A stretch of DNA of 40,672 bases from contig CACHDH010000002.1 of assembly GCA_902578515.1 (NCBI GenBank), positions 1 to 40,672 of the forward strand. The letters run 5' to 3'. Below the pieces are notes generated by a model. It did not search any database, was not told where the DNA came from, and saw nothing but the letters and a program-made list of their open reading frames with translations. Below are positions 11,171-40,672 of this stretch, in pieces (the first letter of the stretch is position 1; every line of letters starts with the position of its first letter). Origin of the DNA: an uncultured marine group I thaumarchaeote (GTDB lineage Archaea; Thermoproteota; Nitrososphaeria; Nitrososphaerales; Nitrosopumilaceae). The position numbers and the translations under genes are program-made.

Positions 11171-11821
11171 ATGATTAAAACTGGATTAAAAGAACTAGAT
11201 CAATTCCTTGGTGGTGGAATTAAAGGGGGATTAATTACTAGTATTTCTGGACAGAGTGCTACCGGAAAAACACAATTAGCGTTTCAAATCTGTCTTAATG
11301 CTTTGGATAGTGGGAAGGAGATCCTTTTTCATGATACAACTGGTGAATTTAGACCTGAAAGACTAGTTGAAATGATGGAATATCAGAAAATTAACCCATC
11401 CCTACTTGACAGAATTAAAATAAATCGGGTTACTAATACTGTAGAGCAACTACAATCACTGACAAAAACAACATTTGAAAATTATTCTTTACTAATAGTA
11501 GACAGTGTAACAGATCTTTTCTCATTTGAATACTCAAAAAAAGAACAATCTTTTGAAAAAAATATTTCTTTTATGAAATATATGCATACTTTATCAATAA
11601 TTGCCATTGAAATGCAAATTCCTATAATCATAACTAATACTGTTCGAAGTATTAACAAATATGAAAAGGAAAACTTGGAGGAATCAATCAGTATGTACAT
11701 ACATAATAAGATAAGACTTTCAAAAAATGGTAATGGGTATTCATGTCAAGCTAGCTCTCCTTTTGATAACAAAAAATTTCAATATACTATAATGTCAAAA
11801 GGCCTAACTGATCAATCTTAA
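11171..11821 (+). CDS. RadB-like/RecA-superfamily ATPase
   Basis: From the ATG at 11171: MIKTGLKELDQFLGGGIKGGLITSISGQSATGKTQLAFQ (Walker A) and LLIVDSVTDLF (Walker B). ORF-track start 11126 is probably too far upstream. Confidence 0.8.
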   Translation: MIKTGLKELDQFLGGGIKGGLITSISGQSATGKTQLAFQICLNALDSGKEILFHDTTGEFRPERLVEMMEYQKINPSLLDRIKINRVTNTVEQLQSLTKTTFENYSLLIVDSVTDLFSFEYSKKEQSFEKNISFMKYMHTLSIIAIEMQIPIIITNTVRSINKYEKENLEESISMYIHNKIRLSKNGNGYSCQASSPFDNKKFQYTIMSKGLTDQS

Positions 11822-11853
11822 TCTATTTAATACACTAAGAACGTGTATACACA

Positions 11854-11973
11854 ATGGCAGGATTTACTGAATATATTCCTATTATTACAATTATTTTGTT
11901 TGCTGCAGGAATTGTAGGTGCGATGGTTTATGAGCGAGTTAGAACAAAAAATATTGAAGAGTCATCATCCTGA
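11854..11973 (+). CDS. Small single-TM protein (39 aa), overlaps 5' end of helicase gene out of frame; absent from ORF track
   Basis: MAGFTEYIPIITIILFAAGIVGAMVYERVRTKNIEESSS*; ATG start with a TATA-like TTTAATAC about 25 nt upstream, consistent with a leaderless transcript. Confidence 0.55.
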   Translation: MAGFTEYIPIITIILFAAGIVGAMVYERVRTKNIEESSS

Positions 11974-14683
11974 AGCTTTTCTAGAAGAAAAATTTCATTC
12001 ATTAGGATTTGAACAACTAACTGATATTCAAAAAAGAGCTACACCTATAATTTATCAAAAAATTGATTCATTGATCATAGCTCCAACAGGCTCAGGTAAA
12101 ACAGAATGCTCAGTAATTCCTATTTTTTCGCAGATAAAAGAAACAAAAAAGCAGGGAAAAATCAAAGCACTTTACATTACGCCATTAAGAGCACTTAACC
12201 GAGATGTTTTTCGAAGAATAATCAAATATGCTGAATTGGATGATCTAACAATTCAAGTTAGACATGGCGACACACCACAATCAGTTAGAAAAAAAATCTC
12301 AGAGTCACCACCAGATGTACTAATTACAACACCGGAAACACTAGTTATTCTTCTCACTCAACAGAAAATGTTATCTGCGCTTTCTGAACTAGAACGTGTT
12401 ATAATTGATGAAGTGCATGAGCTTCTTTCCAGTGAACGTGGATCTCAGTTATCCATAAGTCTAGAAAGACTACAGCTTAATTCAAACCAGAAAATTATAC
12501 GGACTGGACTGTCGGCTACTGTTGGAAATGTTGATGATGCTGCGCACTTTCTTGTTGGAACAGAGAAACCATGTAAGATAATTCAAGATAAGTCAATGAG
12601 GAAGTATGATGTTGAAGTAAAATTTGTTAAAGGTTCAATTTCTGAGGTAGCTGATTCAATTATTCAATATGTTGAAAAATTAGAAATAAATTCTCCAGTT
12701 CTTTTGTTCACTAATACTAGGGGTGAATCTGAATTTTTAGCCTCAATTTTAAAAGAAAAAACTGTGATGAATGTAGAGCTGCATCATGGTTCACTGTCAA
12801 AGCAAGTTAGAGAGGAAACAGAGAGCATACTTCGTAGCGGGGCAAGTGGTATAGTTGTATGTACATCATCTCTTGAATTAGGATTAGACATTGGTTCAGT
12901 GGAACTTGTAATTCATTATGGCTCACCACGCCAAGTATCAAAATTAATGCAACGTATAGGCAGAAGTAAGCACTTTCGTAATTCTTCAGCAAGGGGTCTA
13001 ATTATCACAAACAGTGCTGATGATGAATTTGAAACCAAGGCAATTCTTGACAGAATAAAAAATAGTTCTATTGAAGAACAAAAAATTCATGATGATTCGC
13101 TTGATGTTTTAGCCCACCACCTAGTAGGTCTGTCACTCCAGATGGGTGAATTATCTATTGATTTTGCTTATAAAATAATCAAACAAGCCTATCCATTTAG
13201 AAATCTAACATTAGATGAGTTTTGTAATGTTTTAGAGATCTTGGACAGTATCTACATTCTATCCTTTGACAAGAAAAAAATGAAATTCTGGAAAACACGA
13301 AAGGCATTCAGATATTATTTTGAGAATCTATCAACAATTCCAGATATTTTAAAATTCAAAGTATTTGATTCAGTAGGAAAAAAGATCATAGGATCCTTAG
13401 ATCAAAGGTTTGTTGGTGATCATGGTGAAGCAGGGAACATCTTTGTTCTACGTGGAATGCAATGGAGGATACTGAATGTTGATGAAAAGGCTTTACAAGT
13501 AAACGTTGAACCAATTCGAGGCGAACGAAGGAATGTTCCTTATTGGGAAGGAGAAAACATTCCGGTAGATTACAATACAGCGCAAAAAGTTGGGCTATTC
13601 AGGAATAAAGTAAAACGTGGCTCATTATCAATGCTTAACAAAATAATTCCAGAACTAGATTTTAGCGTTATACCAGATGAGAAAACTATTGTAATTGAGT
13701 CCGTAAGAACAGATCGCAATGTTGTGATTCACGCATGTTTTGGTACAAAAATCAATTCAACCCTCGCAACCATACTTTCCTCACTACTAGAATCTATTCT
13801 TGGGCAAGTTGTTCAATCAAGATCAGATGCATACAGAATTGTTTTGGAATCAAACGCAAGAATTAACCAACAGATGATTATCGATGCTTTAATTGAGAAA
13901 TTTGATCTTCGTGATATTGTAACTGCATCATTGATTGGAACACATAACGTTAATTGGAGAACATGGTGTGTTGCAAAAAAATTTGGGATGGTAGGTCGTG
14001 GGGCTATTTATGATAGAAAATCAGGTCGTTTTCTTTACGAACAATATCAAAATACGCCTGTTGTTATGGAATCATTAAGAGAGCTATTCCATGATAAGTT
14101 TGATCTACAATCAACTGAAATCATTTTAAATAAAATTAGAAATAAGGAAATTCAGATTGAGTGGGTTAATGTCAGCAAGTTTTCCAAATTAGCTGAACCA
14201 CTATTAGATCACACTACAAAATATTATTCATCCCCAGCAAGTGTTGATAAGGCAATTCTTGATTTGGTAAAAAAACGGTTATTCAAAGCCAAGCATCGTC
14301 TAATCTGTGTTCGCTGTGGAAAATGGCAGTTAGCTGTAATTACGGAAGATGTAAAGAATCACCTTAGTTGTAAATATTGTAAAAGTAGGCAAATTACAGC
14401 CACATTTTATTCAGATCATGATTTAGTCAAGATCATTCAGAAAAAACATAGTGGGAAAAAACTTTCAACTGAAGAAAATCAAAAATTTAAACGTGCTTGG
14501 AAAGTAGCTTCGTTAATTGAAACTTTTGGTAAAAATGCTATAATTGTTTTATCAGGTTATGGTGTTGGTGCTGATACTGGTGCGAGAATTTTACGAAATA
14601 TGACTGATCAGGAGCTAATGTATAAACAAATTTACGAAGCTGAAAGACAGTATGTAATGACAAGAGGTTTTTGGGATTACTAA
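11930..14683 (+). CDS. Lhr-type SF2 DEAD/DEAH helicase
   Basis: IIAPTGSGKTE, IIDEVHEL, TGLSATVG, SLELGLDIGSVELVIHYGSP, QRIGRSKH; C-terminal Cys4 knuckle CVRC..CKYC. ATG at 11930 (MSELEQ) is a better start than GTG 11918. Confidence 0.93.
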   Translation: MSELEQKILKSHHPEAFLEEKFHSLGFEQLTDIQKRATPIIYQKIDSLIIAPTGSGKTECSVIPIFSQIKETKKQGKIKALYITPLRALNRDVFRRIIKYAELDDLTIQVRHGDTPQSVRKKISESPPDVLITTPETLVILLTQQKMLSALSELERVIIDEVHELLSSERGSQLSISLERLQLNSNQKIIRTGLSATVGNVDDAAHFLVGTEKPCKIIQDKSMRKYDVEVKFVKGSISEVADSIIQYVEKLEINSPVLLFTNTRGESEFLASILKEKTVMNVELHHGSLSKQVREETESILRSGASGIVVCTSSLELGLDIGSVELVIHYGSPRQVSKLMQRIGRSKHFRNSSARGLIITNSADDEFETKAILDRIKNSSIEEQKIHDDSLDVLAHHLVGLSLQMGELSIDFAYKIIKQAYPFRNLTLDEFCNVLEILDSIYILSFDKKKMKFWKTRKAFRYYFENLSTIPDILKFKVFDSVGKKIIGSLDQRFVGDHGEAGNIFVLRGMQWRILNVDEKALQVNVEPIRGERRNVPYWEGENIPVDYNTAQKVGLFRNKVKRGSLSMLNKIIPELDFSVIPDEKTIVIESVRTDRNVVIHACFGTKINSTLATILSSLLESILGQVVQSRSDAYRIVLESNARINQQMIIDALIEKFDLRDIVTASLIGTHNVNWRTWCVAKKFGMVGRGAIYDRKSGRFLYEQYQNTPVVMESLRELFHDKFDLQSTEIILNKIRNKEIQIEWVNVSKFSKLAEPLLDHTTKYYSSPASVDKAILDLVKKRLFKAKHRLICVRCGKWQLAVITEDVKNHLSCKYCKSRQITATFYSDHDLVKIIQKKHSGKKLSTEENQKFKRAWKVASLIETFGKNAIIVLSGYGVGADTGARILRNMTDQELMYKQIYEAERQYVMTRGFWDY

Positions 14684-33724: not shown

Positions 33725-35302
33725 ATGCGAATGAATTATAACAAATTCAATATCATACATATTTTTTTGATCTCACTATTTCCAGTTCTATTCATATATT
33801 CACAGAATATGCGTGAGACACCTGTGCAGGAAATTGTTTTACCTGCATTATTGATTTTATTTGGTACAGTATTACTTTGGTTACTAACCAGATTCATCAT
33901 AAAAAATAATGAAAAATCAGCTTTCATAATTTCATTACTTTTAGTTTTATCATTCTCATATGGTCATATCTACCTCCTAGTAGATGATTTTACACTTGGA
34001 GATTCAGATCTAGGTAGACATAGATATTTGTTAATACCTTTTGTTATTTCTTTTGTAGTTGGTACTTACTATTTTATCAAAACGAAAATAAATCTAAATA
34101 ATATGTCAACGATCTTTAATGTTTTTGCTGTATCAGTTCTAGCAATTATTTTAATTAATGTTACAACATATAATCTAGAAAACATTAATTCTTTTGAAAA
34201 TGAACTAGTTGTGCCACCATCTGTATCTTTATTTAATACAACTATTGAAACAATATCTCCATATCACGTTGAAAGTAAGAGTTACCCGGATGTTTATTAT
34301 ATTATACTTGATGCGTACACTAGCTCTAATAGTCTAAACAAATTCTTGAATTATGATAATCATGAATTTGTTTCATATTTAACAAATAAGGGATTTACAG
34401 TAAATCATAATAGTTATTCAAATTATCCTAGTTCCTTACCATCAATTACATCCACTTTCAATATGATGTACCTCAACTCTCTAACTGACGACCAGCTTGG
34501 GCCTCAAGAATTGCATATATCAGAGAAAATGATATCTGATGGTCCAGTAATGCAGAATTTCAAATTAGCTGGTTATGATATTATTATTCTTCATAGACCA
34601 TTTACAGAAATGTCTTCCTCATCATTATTTGATTTAGAATTGTGTAAGAGAAATCAATACATCGATTCTCAACTTTTAAGTTTGATAATTAGGACCAGTG
34701 TGTTAGGGTTAGCCCTAGAAAAATTGCAAGAACAAGAAATGAGAGAGACAGCTTTGTGTAATTTTTCTGAATTACCAAAACAACACAAAGCATTTGACAA
34801 ACCCATTTTTGTCGTTTCTCATATACTTATTCCACATCCTCCTTATCTGTTTGATCAAGATGGAAACCCAGTTGATTCGATACGCCCACAAGGGTTAGAA
34901 GATTGGGATTACAAGGAGGGTTATATTAACAGCGTAAAATTTGTGAATAAAAAAATCACCCAAGTTGTAGATGAACTGCTTATTGATTCAGAAAACCCTC
35001 CAGTAATCATAATACAGGCTGATCATGGCTCTCAATTTGATTTTAATTCGAATAATCCTAGCAATGAAAACATTGAACAGGTAATGTCAAATTTTAGTGC
35101 ATATTATTTACCAGGAATAGAGGGGGATTCATCAAACGACGTTATCACACCAGTCAACACTTTTCGTATAATATTCAATTCTTATTTTAATACAGATTAT
35201 GATTTACTCGAAAATAAAATGTATTGGATAAATCCTGCTGGCACATCAGATGATGCACCAGAGTATTTTATTGATGTAACAGATATCTTAATTGCACCAT
35301 AA
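33725..35302 (+). CDS. Multi-TM protein with alkaline-phosphatase/sulfatase-superfamily domain (phosphotransferase-like)
   Basis: N-terminal TM helices, then DVYYIILDAYTSS, YPSSLPSITSTFN (nucleophile region), HILIPHPPYLFD, IIIQADHGSQFD. Confidence 0.75.
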   Translation: MRMNYNKFNIIHIFLISLFPVLFIYSQNMRETPVQEIVLPALLILFGTVLLWLLTRFIIKNNEKSAFIISLLLVLSFSYGHIYLLVDDFTLGDSDLGRHRYLLIPFVISFVVGTYYFIKTKINLNNMSTIFNVFAVSVLAIILINVTTYNLENINSFENELVVPPSVSLFNTTIETISPYHVESKSYPDVYYIILDAYTSSNSLNKFLNYDNHEFVSYLTNKGFTVNHNSYSNYPSSLPSITSTFNMMYLNSLTDDQLGPQELHISEKMISDGPVMQNFKLAGYDIIILHRPFTEMSSSSLFDLELCKRNQYIDSQLLSLIIRTSVLGLALEKLQEQEMRETALCNFSELPKQHKAFDKPIFVVSHILIPHPPYLFDQDGNPVDSIRPQGLEDWDYKEGYINSVKFVNKKITQVVDELLIDSENPPVIIIQADHGSQFDFNSNNPSNENIEQVMSNFSAYYLPGIEGDSSNDVITPVNTFRIIFNSYFNTDYDLLENKMYWINPAGTSDDAPEYFIDVTDILIAP

Positions 35303-35327: not shown

Positions 35328-36347
35328 TTAATGTAAAAGATCATCATAAGTATCAAGGTAAAGTTTTCCAACTTGTTTCCAGTCATACTTTAGAACAGCT
35401 TTAAGACATTCAGCAGCAATCATAGATCTTCTTTGCGTGTCTGTCAGTAAATCAGAGATTTTGTTCAAGAGCTTTTCCGCGTTATTTGTTTCAATAAGAA
35501 TACCAGTTTTATCATTATCTAAAATTTCCGTATTTCCACCCACATTACTAGCTATAATACATGTCCCACAACCCATTGCTTCAAGCAGTGTAGAACTTGT
35601 TCCCTCCATAATAGATGGTTGCACAAGCAAATCTGATCCACGTATTAAGGAAATTGTATTTTCTTTTGATTGATATCCTAAATAATGTATATTCGTTTTT
35701 GATTTAGCTACCTTACGAACTTTTTCTTCAACAGGACCCACTCCTACAATAACAAGATTATATTTTGCTGGTAGATTTTCAGCTACTTCTAACAGAGTAT
35801 CCATTCCTTTCTCTTTTGATAATCGTCCTGCGTAAATAATTTGATTTTGAAATTTTTTAATAGATTTTTTTGGAAAACTATCGAGGTTTACAGCATTTGG
35901 AATATATCTGACATTGAAACCGAATTTAGAATAATACTCACATACTTCCTTTGATACAGCAGTTATTGAATCAGCCCAGTTTAACGCCTTCTCTTCATAA
36001 TTTTTTGAAATGTTAGAATAGATTTTTCCATGAAGCTCAGTAATTTGTTGTGAGTAAATGCCATGAAGTGATAGAACCTTTTTACCAACAGCCTTTTTCA
36101 TAGCAAGGGCAGCAGGTATATTATGAGCATGAACAATATCATGTTCCTTCACTGTTCTAGATTTCAAAAATGATGATAACATAAAACTGGGATTCCTAAG
36201 ACCTTTTATTGGAATGGTGAATGTGTTCTTCGAGGATATTGTATCTACCTTATGATTATGGCTTGTTAAGAACTTGGAAAGACCACTAACATGTTGTGCA
36301 ATACCACCAATGCCTTCCTCTGTTGGTGAAATTAATAATATTTTCAT
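35328..36347 (-). CDS. GT4-family glycosyltransferase
   Basis: ISPTEEGIGGIAQHVSGLSKFLTSHNH, YAGRLSKEKGMDTLLEV, PSIMEGTSSTLLEAMGCGTCIIAS. Confidence 0.92.
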   Translation of the reverse strand: MKILLISPTEEGIGGIAQHVSGLSKFLTSHNHKVDTISSKNTFTIPIKGLRNPSFMLSSFLKSRTVKEHDIVHAHNIPAALAMKKAVGKKVLSLHGIYSQQITELHGKIYSNISKNYEEKALNWADSITAVSKEVCEYYSKFGFNVRYIPNAVNLDSFPKKSIKKFQNQIIYAGRLSKEKGMDTLLEVAENLPAKYNLVIVGVGPVEEKVRKVAKSKTNIHYLGYQSKENTISLIRGSDLLVQPSIMEGTSSTLLEAMGCGTCIIASNVGGNTEILDNDKTGILIETNNAEKLLNKISDLLTDTQRRSMIAAECLKAVLKYDWKQVGKLYLDTYDDLLH

Positions 36348-36498: not shown

Positions 36499-37872
36499 TT
36501 GGAAAATTCAAAGAAAATAGATGTAAATAATATCGATCAAGTTAGGAATTCCCTAAATGATAAATCCCTGAAAGTTTGTGTAGTAGGTATTGGGAGAATT
36601 GGTCTTCCAACTGCGTTATCATTTGCAAAAGCTGGTCTTCAAACAATTGGAATGGATATTAATGAGAAATTAGTGAATTCAATTAATCAAGGAAATTTTC
36701 CGTTAAAAGATGAACCTGGATACGAAGATATATTCAACAATGTCATAAAAAATGGAAATTTTTCAGCAACCACTAACATCAATGAGGCAGTCTCAAAATC
36801 AAATTTAATTTTATTATCACTACCTACCCCTATGAACAAAAAAAATATCCCAGATTATTCTGCTCTTGAATCTGTATGTAAACAGCTTAGTGATATTCTT
36901 CAACCTAATTCCCTGATTGTTGTTGAAAGTACAATTGAACCAGGTTTTATTGAAAGTACTTTGATCAATATTCTAGAGAAAACTAAAAGATTACACGTTG
37001 GTAAAAATTTTACAATTGGTGTGTGCCCAGAAAATGCGAATCCGGGTGAAATTTTTCATGATTTTACAAATTTACCAAGACTTGTGGGAAGTATAGATAA
37101 AGAGACTACAAAAATTATTGCTATGATCTATGATTTTGTATTTTCTGTAGAATTAATTATAATGCCAGACTGCAAAACGGCGAATGCAGTAAAGCTTACT
37201 ACAAATGTTTTCAGAGATGTTAATATTGCATTTGTTAACGAATTATCTTTAATGTTTGACAAGCTAGGAATTGATACACTGAAAGTTTTAGATGCAGCCA
37301 AACGCAAATATAACTTTCAAATTCATTATCCTGGTGCTGGTGTTGGTGGTCCATGTTTACCCATCAATTCGTATCAATTCTTGAATACTGCAACAAGAAC
37401 AGACTCAAAACTAAGTATCATAGAACAAAGTAGAGAGATTAATGAGAAAATGCCTGATCATGTAATTAATCTCACTTTAGATTGCTTCAAAAAATGTAAT
37501 AAATCTATCAAGGGTTCTAACATTTTGATTTTGGGTATATCTTACAAGGCTGATGTAAAAGATGTTCAATTAAGCCCAGCGGAAATAATAATAAACAAAC
37601 TCAAGGATTTAGGTGCAAGTATTAGAATCTATGATCCGTACTACAAAAACAGTGAAGTTTTTGGAATAAATATAGAATCCAATATGAATGATGCAATTAC
37701 AAAAGCAGATGCATCAATAATTATTACTGCACATAAAGAATTTCAAGAAATTAATCCCCAAATATTTACCAAAATGAATACACCAATCTTAATAGATTCA
37801 AGGGGTGTGATTGACACTTCTTCCATAAAGAATACCAATTTAGTTTTTAGAGGTATTGGACGTGGGATCTAA
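36499..37872 (+). CDS. NDP-sugar 6-dehydrogenase, WecC/WbpA-like (TTG start)
   Basis: VGIGRIGLPTALSFAKAG, NAVKLTTNVFRDVNIAFVNEL (catalytic Lys), GAGVGGPCLPIN (catalytic Cys), C-terminal NISYKADVKD-like GISYKADVKDVQLSPA. Confidence 0.92.
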   Translation: MENSKKIDVNNIDQVRNSLNDKSLKVCVVGIGRIGLPTALSFAKAGLQTIGMDINEKLVNSINQGNFPLKDEPGYEDIFNNVIKNGNFSATTNINEAVSKSNLILLSLPTPMNKKNIPDYSALESVCKQLSDILQPNSLIVVESTIEPGFIESTLINILEKTKRLHVGKNFTIGVCPENANPGEIFHDFTNLPRLVGSIDKETTKIIAMIYDFVFSVELIIMPDCKTANAVKLTTNVFRDVNIAFVNELSLMFDKLGIDTLKVLDAAKRKYNFQIHYPGAGVGGPCLPINSYQFLNTATRTDSKLSIIEQSREINEKMPDHVINLTLDCFKKCNKSIKGSNILILGISYKADVKDVQLSPAEIIINKLKDLGASIRIYDPYYKNSEVFGINIESNMNDAITKADASIIITAHKEFQEINPQIFTKMNTPILIDSRGVIDTSSIKNTNLVFRGIGRGI

Positions 37873-39082
37873 TTTCTTACCACCTAATCCATCATCAATC
37901 ACAAATATTCTAACATTAAGATACGATCCGTCAATAACACCAAATCTACCTAGAAAAGCTTGGAATGATTTCAAACCCATAACTGAAAAACCTTCGACTG
38001 AATTTATTGAAAAATCTATTACGAATACTATTAGAAAACAATTAGATATCTCATCTGTCAAAAAAATTTGTATTGCATTAAGTGGAGGAATTGATTCTAC
38101 CCTGATTCTTACCTTAATTAAAAAAACTTTTCCTGCTATACAAGTTGATGCAATATCAGTAAAATTTGCGAATAGTATTGATGAAACAGAAAATGCAGCA
38201 AAAATTGCTGCAAAATTAGAAGCTGATCACCATATTATCAATGTAGAAAATTATTTACAAGAATTACCTAAAGCTATTAGCATCATCAAACTTCCATTCT
38301 GGGACCTTCATTGGTATCATGTTGCTAAGAAGGCACAATCTCTTTCAAAGTATCTTGCTTCTGGTGATGGTGGTGATGAATTATTTGGAGGATATACATT
38401 TAGATACAAAAAATTTCTATCTTTGGTAAATACAAATTCTACGCCATTAGAAAAAGTCAGATTATATCTATCATGTCATGAAAGGGATCAAGTTCCTGAT
38501 CAGGAAAAATTATTTGGAAAACAAGCCAAATTCTCATGGGAATCAATTAGCAAACCACTAATTTCACATTTTGATAATACGTTATCTCCTATTGAACAAG
38601 TATTTCTAGCAGACTATAATGGAAAATTATTATATAATTTTAATCCCATTAATACAAAAATATTAAATCATTTTGATATGAAATCTATATCTCCCTTATT
38701 GTCTGAGGAGATGATCTCTTATGCCTTAAACATACCATTACAGTACAAATATGATGACACTAAAAATATTGGAAAATTACCTTTACGACAGCTGCTAGCA
38801 AAATATAACATGGACAAATTCATCACCAACGAAAAATTAGGATTTAATGTAAATACACTCAATTTATGGAAATCCTTTGGGCAACAATTATGCCAAGAAT
38901 ACTTCACAGATTCTCAGGTAGTAAGGGATGGTTGGATAAACAAAGATTGGATTAATGAATACATGTACAAAGACGATTTAGATGTAAGATATGTGAACAA
39001 GTTTCTTGGTTTATTGGCATTTGAAGTATGGTACAGGTTATTCATCACAAAGGATATGAGTGCAAATACTACACTAAATTAA
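37856..39082 (+). CDS. Asparagine-synthetase-like PP-loop amidase lacking N-terminal glutaminase domain
   Basis: ICIALSGGIDSTLIL PP-loop and LASGDGGDELFGGYTFRYKKF; no N-terminal Cys glutaminase (no MCGI). TTG 37856 or GTG 37862 start overlaps upstream stop. Confidence 0.85.
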   Translation: MDVGSNFLPPNPSSITNILTLRYDPSITPNLPRKAWNDFKPITEKPSTEFIEKSITNTIRKQLDISSVKKICIALSGGIDSTLILTLIKKTFPAIQVDAISVKFANSIDETENAAKIAAKLEADHHIINVENYLQELPKAISIIKLPFWDLHWYHVAKKAQSLSKYLASGDGGDELFGGYTFRYKKFLSLVNTNSTPLEKVRLYLSCHERDQVPDQEKLFGKQAKFSWESISKPLISHFDNTLSPIEQVFLADYNGKLLYNFNPINTKILNHFDMKSISPLLSEEMISYALNIPLQYKYDDTKNIGKLPLRQLLAKYNMDKFITNEKLGFNVNTLNLWKSFGQQLCQEYFTDSQVVRDGWINKDWINEYMYKDDLDVRYVNKFLGLLAFEVWYRLFITKDMSANTTLN

Positions 39083-39112
39083 TTTAGAACGAAAATCCCA
39101 AAAAATTAAACA

Positions 39113-39871
39113 ATGAAAAAAGACGTAGTAGCAGGAATTGGGGAAATAGGGAAACCAATTTTAAAACTTTTATCTAAAAACAATGTTATTGTTGGATTTG
39201 ATTTAAATCCTAAATTAATGGATCAAAGAAAATTTGAAAGATATAAAAAACTTCCAACTTCATTTTTGCATATTACTATTCCCGTAACAAACAGATTCGT
39301 AAATAATGTCTTGAAACTTGAGAAAAAATTTAAGCCTGAATGTATTGTTATTCATAGTACAATAAAACCTGGCACTACAAAAATATTACAAAAAAAATTA
39401 TCAATCCCTGTAATATATAGTGCAACCAGGGGTGTGCACAAAAGAATGATACGTGATCTTAAACGATACACCAAATTTTTTGTAATTTCAACAAATGCAC
39501 CTAGACGCAAATGGGCCTCCTCACGCTTTACAAAATTAATGAAACAATGTGGTATCAAAACAAAGAAAATGTCAAACCCGGAAACGTTAGAATTAGCAAA
39601 AATAATTTGTGACACTTCATATCTAGGTTGGTTAGTAAACTATGCTCAATTAAGTAATAGAATTGCTATTCATCATGGAGTTAACTATGATGAAATGTGG
39701 AGTTTTTCTAATGAAATTCATCAATTCTTAGGAAATAGACCAAAAATGTATCCCGGTCATATTGGTGGGCATTGCGTGATACCAAATCTTAATCTGATAA
39801 ATAATGAAACTCTTAACCTAATTAATAAAATAAATAATAGTTACTCAAAAAAATTAAAAAAATCTAAATAA
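39113..39871 (+). CDS. Short NDP-sugar dehydrogenase-like protein without C-terminal substrate domain
   Basis: VAGIGEIGKPILKLLSKNNVIVGFDLNP, ETLELAKIICDTSYLGWLVNYAQLSN, YPGHIGGHCVIPN; only 252 aa. Confidence 0.75.
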   Translation: MKKDVVAGIGEIGKPILKLLSKNNVIVGFDLNPKLMDQRKFERYKKLPTSFLHITIPVTNRFVNNVLKLEKKFKPECIVIHSTIKPGTTKILQKKLSIPVIYSATRGVHKRMIRDLKRYTKFFVISTNAPRRKWASSRFTKLMKQCGIKTKKMSNPETLELAKIICDTSYLGWLVNYAQLSNRIAIHHGVNYDEMWSFSNEIHQFLGNRPKMYPGHIGGHCVIPNLNLINNETLNLINKINNSYSKKLKKSK

Positions 39872-39876
39872 AAAAT

Positions 39877-40672
39877 ATGGATCTGACCAAATCAATGTTT
39901 GATAAAGAAAAGAATGATATAGAAAAGTTTAATCAATTAGATTTAGACGAACGTTCAATCGTTTTTTATTCAGAAGATATTTCTTCATTTGTTTATTTTG
40001 AACAAATTATTCATGAATTAACTGAAAAAATGGGGCGACAGATTTGCTATGTAACATCAGCTAAGGATGATCCTATTCTTAAAAACCAAAATGAAAAAAT
40101 CAGAGCTTTTTACATAGGAAATTCTGAAATTGTAAAGTTAAAATTTTTTTTAGGATTAAAAGCAAAGGTGTTGATTATGACTATGCCAGATTTAGGAACT
40201 TATCATATTAAACGTTCAAAGGCATTTCCTGTACATTATGTTCACATTTTTCATGCTATGAATAGTACACATAGAAATTATCGTAAAGGTGCATTTGATC
40301 ACTTTGATTCAATTTTTTGTACTGGTTGCCATCATGTGGAAGAGATTAAAGCTACTGAAAAATTGTATAACCTTAAACAAAAAAATTTGGTTGAATGTGG
40401 ATATGGATTATTAGACAAACTACAAAAAACTAAACCACTACAAAATCAAGACATGCATACTAAAGATGGAAGAAAGAAAATCTTAATCGCCCCATCATGG
40501 GGGAAAAAAGGCTTATTTGAAACTAAAGGACTAGAACTAGTAAAAATTTTGCTTGATGCTGGATATCATGTAACTGTTAGACCACATCCAATGACGGTTA
40601 AAAAATGGCCAAAAATAATTAATGTAATTGAAAATGAATTTAAGAACGATTCAAACTTTACAATGGAAAAGG
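39877..40672 (+). CDS. CDP-glycerol glycerophosphotransferase (TagB/TagF-like) family protein, 3'-truncated by window end; absent from ORF track
   Basis: Own translation from ATG 39877: ...VHYVHIFHAMNSTHRNYRKGAFDHFDSIFCTGCHHVEEI...ILIAPSWGKKGLFETKGLELVKILLDAGYHVTVRPHPMT... Confidence 0.75.
   Translation, partial: MDLTKSMFDKEKNDIEKFNQLDLDERSIVFYSEDISSFVYFEQIIHELTEKMGRQICYVTSAKDDPILKNQNEKIRAFYIGNSEIVKLKFFLGLKAKVLIMTMPDLGTYHIKRSKAFPVHYVHIFHAMNSTHRNYRKGAFDHFDSIFCTGCHHVEEIKATEKLYNLKQKNLVECGYGLLDKLQKTKPLQNQDMHTKDGRKKILIAPSWGKKGLFETKGLELVKILLDAGYHVTVRPHPMTVKKWPKIINVIENEFKNDSNFTMEK

Follow-up and report, generated by a model that had tools for sequence, protein, structure and literature searches.

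What could a sugar dehydrogenase and an asparagine synthetase-like enzyme without a glutaminase part produce together in a surface-glycan locus of an ammonia-oxidising archaeon? The question is raised by contig CACHDH010000002.1, the 40,672 bases of which constitute, as a whole, the window analysed here, and which stems from an incomplete genome (58%) of a marine group of ammonia-oxidising archaea (AOA). The two genes, termed DH1 and ASN, overlap by 17 nucleotides (nt) and encode products of 457 and 408 amino acids (aa):

36499..37872, + strand: DH1, full-length nucleoside diphosphate (NDP)-sugar dehydrogenase with altered catalytic residues (457 aa, TTG start)
37856..39082, + strand: ASN, lone synthase domain of the Asn-synthetase type (408 aa, TTG start)

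The proposed answer, to which we assign a probability of about 0.6 on the basis of sequence and model comparisons, is that DH1 and ASN convert C6 of a surface-glycan sugar to a carboxamide in an ammonia-dependent manner. An initial annotation had suggested a uronamide-forming module of these two genes and a truncated dehydrogenase gene, DH2; its coordinates, reading frames, gene overlap and three-gene layout are borne out, while its uronamide reading is partly supported: the outline stands, but the dehydrogenase is not the one expected.

The arrangement of the two genes is not restricted to the window. In a survey of 151 genomes of the family, ASN is located directly downstream of DH1 on the same strand for 38 of 42 DH1 genes, the distance between the two ranging from -14 to +35 nt; of the other four DH1 genes, two are at the edge of a contig and one is separated from an ASN by about 1.4 kb. 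An ASN-like gene is found in 56 of these genomes and DH1 in 38, with both present in 37, DH1 only in one (at a contig edge), ASN only in 19 and neither in 94, a co-occurrence with a Fisher p of 5e-20 that, given shared ancestry, overstates the independence of the genomes. The gene order is retained at 50-70% protein identity. DH1 and ASN are a real conserved module far beyond chance, so that a non-conserved dehydrogenase/ASN neighbourhood, named at the outset as a possible refutation, does not apply. A wider survey of 300 genomes of the class located ASN in 77, and it is found in about a third of the Nitrosopumilales genomes, so that a module universal to this order can be discarded. The pair sits inside surface-glycan loci, as its neighbours encode NTP_transferase proteins, SDR epimerases, DegT aminotransferases, a sulfotransferase and GT4-type glycosyltransferases, the latter bordering the pair in most loci. 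A canonical UDPGDH-type dehydrogenase is present in nine fetched DH1 loci, and many other loci with the pair show none nearby.

Judged by domain content, fold and motifs, ASN is a glutaminase-less Asn-synthetase-type enzyme. Its sole Pfam match from the Asn-synthetase architecture is PF00733 Asn_synthase (E 1.1e-39, residues 54-394); no GATase domain was matched in this search and alignments to the full-length models TIGR01536 and TIGR03108 begin only at about position 190-230 of the profile, so that the N-terminal glutaminase is absent, as initially annotated. The fold and motifs of the PF00733 family, including the PP-loop SGGIDST and GDGGDELFGGY, are present, and the AlphaFold model (pLDDT 91) is matched by Foldseek to TsnB9, carbapenam synthetase, human ASNS and Escherichia coli AsnB. 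ASN scores below threshold against both TIGR01536 (AsnB; 85.6 bits, cut-off 267) and TIGR03108 (72.3 bits, cut-off 816.9). The motif ExRxPYLD, present in the true AsnB proteins aligned alongside, is missing from ASN, which argues for an acceptor other than aspartate without indicating its identity.

With respect to the nitrogen source, no free-standing class-II glutaminase was seen in five pair-bearing Nitrosopumilaceae genomes (G019, G005, G017, G034 and G076), among which G019, complete with 1,232,128 bases and of the same genus as the window, is presumably Candidatus Nitrosopelagicus brevis CN25. GATase_7 is confined in these five genomes to proteins of about 590 and about 480 aa; the 585-aa one in G019 carries SIS domains and is GlmS, and the sizes of the others are those expected of GlmS and PurF. 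As no class-II glutaminase beyond proteins of GlmS and PurF size was encountered, free ammonia is likely the simplest donor for ASN, one of the two sources initially suggested, the other being a GATase encoded elsewhere.

In DH1, each of the three UDPG_MGDP_dh domains of Pfam is present. The protein reaches 383 bits with TIGR03026 (curated cut-off 189.8), and its top solved-structure match is 4R16, a UDP-ManNAcA dehydrogenase entry (2.3e-66). A comparison of 229 NDP-sugar dehydrogenases, from which residue numbering and roles are adopted here, had recognized 18 invariant residues including Asp264 and Glu201, with Asp264 as the general base, Cys260 as the nucleophile and the 98% conserved Tyr10 promoting thioester hydrolysis (PMC4794789). 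In 29 of 29 aligned DH1 proteins Tyr10 is replaced by Arg, Glu201 by Asn, His259 by Pro and Asp264 by Asn, and Cys260, Lys204, Asn208, Glu141, Thr118 and Lys320 are unchanged in all 29, with the NAD motif GxGxxG equally invariant. Glu201 and Asp264 are kept in all 11 canonical paralogues from DH1 loci. The canonical catalytic set is incomplete in DH1 with respect to Asp264, Glu201 and Tyr10, and it looks as if the oxidising machinery is kept and the water-activating machinery changed. Of the WecC-type enzyme initially annotated, the three domains and the catalytic Lys and Cys stand, but a plain WecC it is not, and the synthesis of an NDP-uronic acid by DH1 is uncertain with the catalytic residues replaced in all 29 homologues. 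Since the reference set of 229 omits some uncharacterised dehydrogenases, similar replacements may also be found in further families.

The loss of the catalytic Asp is not a general companion of ASN. Nitrososphaeraceae possess a full-length NDP-sugar dehydrogenase, DH3, with the motifs GLGHVG, KLxEGVYRD and GGACIPVYP, in which Asp264 is replaced by Tyr and Asn208 by Gly:

G206:C1:2297176-2298546 (= L144:10176-11549): DH3 example, with some 30 further loci (L268-L297)

DH3 is common in genomes without ASN, and the idea that Asp loss in a dehydrogenase is always accompanied by ASN was rejected on these grounds; because DH3 is so widespread without ASN, the altered catalytic set is tightly tied to ASN for DH1 only. 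In genome G206, identified below as Nitrososphaera viennensis, the sole full-length NDP-sugar dehydrogenase at E<=1e-20 is a DH3, and the same holds for a second genome, which we take as a candidate Nitrososphaera gargensis. As it is the sole full-length one found at this threshold, the glycans of these two may be made with a dehydrogenase that lacks the textbook base.

On these grounds DH1 would bind an NDP-sugar and, as its conserved residues suggest, oxidise C6 with NAD+ via a Cys260 thioester to the uronic acid, whereby hydrolysis would have to rely on a base other than Asp264 or Tyr10. ASN, in turn, would adenylate the C6 carboxylate with ATP, as predicted from fold and motifs, and free rather than glutamine-derived ammonia would attack the activated carboxylate to yield the uronamide. 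In Campylobacter jejuni, the glucuronate amide is made after glycosyl transfer (PMC11800397), an order by which amidation on the growing chain would also fit the GT2 glycosyltransferase located beside ASN in Nitrososphaera. C. jejuni Cj1441 had been considered as a precedent for amine capture and was dropped, as published work assigns the acid to Cj1441 and the amide to Cj1438C.

Among known systems, the uronamide pathways of Pseudomonas aeruginosa O6, E. coli O121, Porphyromonas gingivalis and Helicobacter pullorum combine WbpS, WbqG or PGN_1234 (TIGR03108 eps_aminotran_1) with dehydrogenases of the WbpO/WbpA type; the WbpS homologue makes a uronamide in P. gingivalis (PMC7468200) and probably does so for the H. 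pullorum N-glycan (PMC6025236). Like these, the archaeal pair links an Asn-synthetase-type enzyme with an NDP-sugar 6-dehydrogenase in surface-glycan loci with a carboxamide sugar as the proposed product. Unlike WbpS, ASN is devoid of the N-terminal glutaminase part of about 200 residues and remains a distant match (72 versus a cut-off of 817), and unlike the WbpO/WbpA partners DH1 has Asp264, Tyr10 and Glu201 replaced. With the UDP-ManNAc dehydrogenases WecC and Cap5O (PDB 4R16, 3OJL) DH1 shares the three-domain fold and the catalytic Cys and Lys, but differs by the invariant Arg, Asn and Asn at positions 10, 201 and 264. Beta-lactam and carbapenam synthetases and the hydroxyamidotransferase TsnB9, the top PDB matches, share the Asn-synthetase fold with ASN, yet have chains of about 490-576 residues and different substrates and products. 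Most likely, the pair resembles the WbpO/WbpS route, yet as a variant of it.

Does any AOA glycan carry such a sugar? The N-glycan of N. viennensis contains four di-N-acetyl-hexuronamide residues, Hex(NAc)2(CONH2), of 287.11 Da, and its surface layer (S-layer) protein has 5 sites, one per 239.8 residues, with N1181 unmodified; the report names no amidating gene, with 'asparagine synth' and 'amide' absent from its main text (PMC12153357). Genome G206 (2,527,938 bases) contains an S-layer-like open reading frame (ORF); read from the second of its possible starts, it encodes exactly 1199 aa, and a sequon is located at N1181. Since this fits the published protein (PMC12153357), G206 is identified as N. 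viennensis. It encodes an ASN homologue of 404 aa with PF00733 only, adjoining a GT2 glycosyltransferase, so that the uronamide link proposed by the initial annotation is strengthened by an ASN relative in the sole AOA with a known uronamide glycan. ASN was not found in G059 (1,713,078 bp), presumably Nitrosopumilus piranensis. No N-glycan was detected in N. piranensis (PMC12153357). The contrast between these two species supports ASN as the amide gene, but falls short of proof because G206 also encodes a full AsnB, located beside uvrB. The N. viennensis system is thus alike in having uronamide sugars in an AOA with an ASN homologue, and differs in that ASN is beside the GT2 gene without linkage to a dehydrogenase.

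Besides the AsnB of N. viennensis, several observations weigh against amide formation by the pair. The ASN of this species is about 40% identical to Nitrosopelagicus ASNs and unlinked to a dehydrogenase, the glycan is known only from N. viennensis among AOA and from none of the window's lineage, and 14 window-related ASN genes have no DH1 directly upstream, some of them being at contig edges. With the catalytic Asp missing from DH1, release of the free acid may fail. The ammonia donor, furthermore, is deduced from an absence in a survey that covered class-II but not triad-type glutaminases.

Alternative activities have to be weighed against this background. The partner that ASN attaches to the uronate might be an amine, such as an amino acid, instead of ammonia, and the product a substituted amide. 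Among the closest structures are carbapenam and beta-lactam synthetases, which are related to Asn synthetase and work without ammonia; ExRxPYLD is missing, and methanogen N-glycans with a threonine amide are known. The C. jejuni capsule likewise contains serinol and ethanolamine amides, with Cj1438C amidating glucuronate under formation of ADP (PMC11800397). As the sole characterised AOA glycan bears unsubstituted carboxamides, and as no gene dedicated to the synthesis of an amine was recognised among the conserved neighbours of the pair, this remains unlikely. An asparagine synthetase using ammonia, with the dehydrogenase as an incidental neighbour, would be consistent with the Asn_synthase domain and the 14 ASN relatives without adjacent DH1, but the tight coupling in 38 of 42 cases, the patchy presence within glycan loci, the lack of ExRxPYLD and the other short Asn_synthase-like proteins in four Nitrosopumilaceae genomes with or without ASN make it highly improbable.

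Two further readings concern the role of DH1. In all 29 proteins, neither the general base nor the hydrolysis-promoting Tyr is present, and all keep Cys260, Lys204, Asn208 and Glu141, such that ammonia instead of water could resolve the Cys260 thioester and DH1 itself form the amide, with ASN in a supporting or later role; moreover, DH1 is not the sole oxidase in the nine loci, because a canonical UDPGDH-type dehydrogenase is encoded there. In that case, however, ASN would have no use for its conserved ATP-pyrophosphatase site, and DH3, widespread without ASN, demonstrates that loss of Asp264 alone does not equal amide formation, so that we consider it quite unlikely. The same altered residues and nearby canonical enzymes would suit a DH1 that is no dehydrogenase but a binding partner presenting NDP-uronate from the locus's canonical UDPGDH to ASN. 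A mere binder, though, would not need invariant Cys260, Lys204, Asn208 and GxGxxG, and many pair loci show no canonical dehydrogenase nearby; we regard it as very unlikely.

The DH1/ASN pair, to return to the amide-forming reading, probably makes nitrogen-rich uronamide surface sugars in many AOA, which are among the most abundant microbes of sea and soil and the S-layer of which is thought to gather ammonium. A bolder and, in our view, rather unlikely extension is that a DH1 without thioester hydrolysis works as one unit with ASN, taking an NDP-sugar alcohol to the primary amide with NAD+, ATP and free ammonia, whereby the surface glycan would serve ammonia oxidisers as a store of ammonium nitrogen. 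ASN is a concrete candidate for the amide gene of the most nitrogen-rich archaeal glycan known, that of an AOA, which was reported without one, and its presence/absence pattern leads to predictions on the glycans of cultured strains, among them Nitrosotenuis chungbukensis MY2, the presumable source of contig G082:C3, on which DH1 and ASN are encoded. With the Asp-less DH1 tied to ASN, nature offers a variant of the textbook enzyme that seemingly has a changed hydrolysis step.

The remaining genes around the pair are as follows:

35328..36347, - strand: GT4-type glycosyltransferase (PF00534, 6.6e-38), divergent neighbour, cluster context
39113..39871, + strand: DH2, optional truncated UDPGDH-like protein (252 aa) without the UDP-binding C-terminal domain
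39877..40671, + strand: CDP-glycerol:poly(glycerophosphate) glycerophosphotransferase-like gene (PF04464, 1.3e-6), cluster context

DH2, which starts 30 nt past the ASN stop, has no Pfam match and a weak, below cut-off match to TIGR03026 (25.2 bits, 6.5e-6); its AlphaFold model is most similar to UDP-glucose dehydrogenases in the PDB, minus the UDP-binding domain, and its GGHCVIPN motif retains the Cys with Asn at the position of Asp264. The early description as a truncated dehydrogenase relative therefore holds, but not as a constant part of the module: among 11 loci with full-length DH2, the window counted, it adjoins ASN in five and is 1.7-6.3 kb away in the other six. DH2 is an optional, looser companion of the DH1/ASN pair. 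Several NDP-sugar dehydrogenase-like proteins of about 290-340 aa without the UDP-binding domain and with GGHCLPKDS kept are also encoded in each Nitrososphaera genome, one of them near a DegT aminotransferase in N. viennensis:

L149:7695-8555 and 11207-12118; L131-L143: dehydrogenase-like proteins of about 290-340 aa

Relatives of ASN occur in further contexts. Some Nitrosopumilaceae possess a second, more Nitrososphaera-like ASN paralogue (L043:16429-17634, L051:12590-13804, L052:2449-3678), with a DH3-type dehydrogenase within about 3 kb (GGLCIPVYP in L051 and L052). Two further short glutaminase-less Asn_synthase-like proteins (about 250-270 and about 316-350 aa) are encoded in four of four Nitrosopumilaceae genomes, ASN-less ones included:

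G019:C1:278427 and 658175; G046:C1:1333952 and 815943; G059:C1:1664568 and 1027462: short Asn_synthase-like genes

ASN is lacking from the genomes taken to be Nitrosopumilus maritimus, N. piranensis and Nitrosopumilus adriaticus. An 'asparagine synthetase' with a high fixation index (FST) in Ca. N. brevis (PMC9239043) was considered to be ASN and dropped, as that genome has two other Asn_synthase-like genes, of about 268 and about 316 aa. A profile scan with a Nitrososphaera-type ASN alignment hit, among its best 80 matches, AOA-like records only, bar three: an AOA-type ASN is present in L183, L188 and L232, the titles of which name Nitrospina sp., 'bacterium' and Gammaproteobacteria. Bacterial hosts were not adopted, as titles and similarity indicate that these are probably misbinned AOA contigs. 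An apparent 785-aa ASN fusion in L055 was likewise dismissed: the genome is GC-rich and the long ORF is taken for an artefact, with a non-coding-like extension and ASN starting at an internal Met.

At the end of the contig, the CDP-glycerol transferase-like gene follows 5 nt 3' of DH2 and is incomplete. On the other side of the GT4 gene, positions 33725-35302 encode a 525-aa protein with N-terminal hydrophobic stretches that appears sulfatase/phosphatase-like by eye, matches no Pfam family above cut-off and has homologues in L033, L044 and L058. Together, these two genes hint at a polyol-phosphate polymer at the locus.

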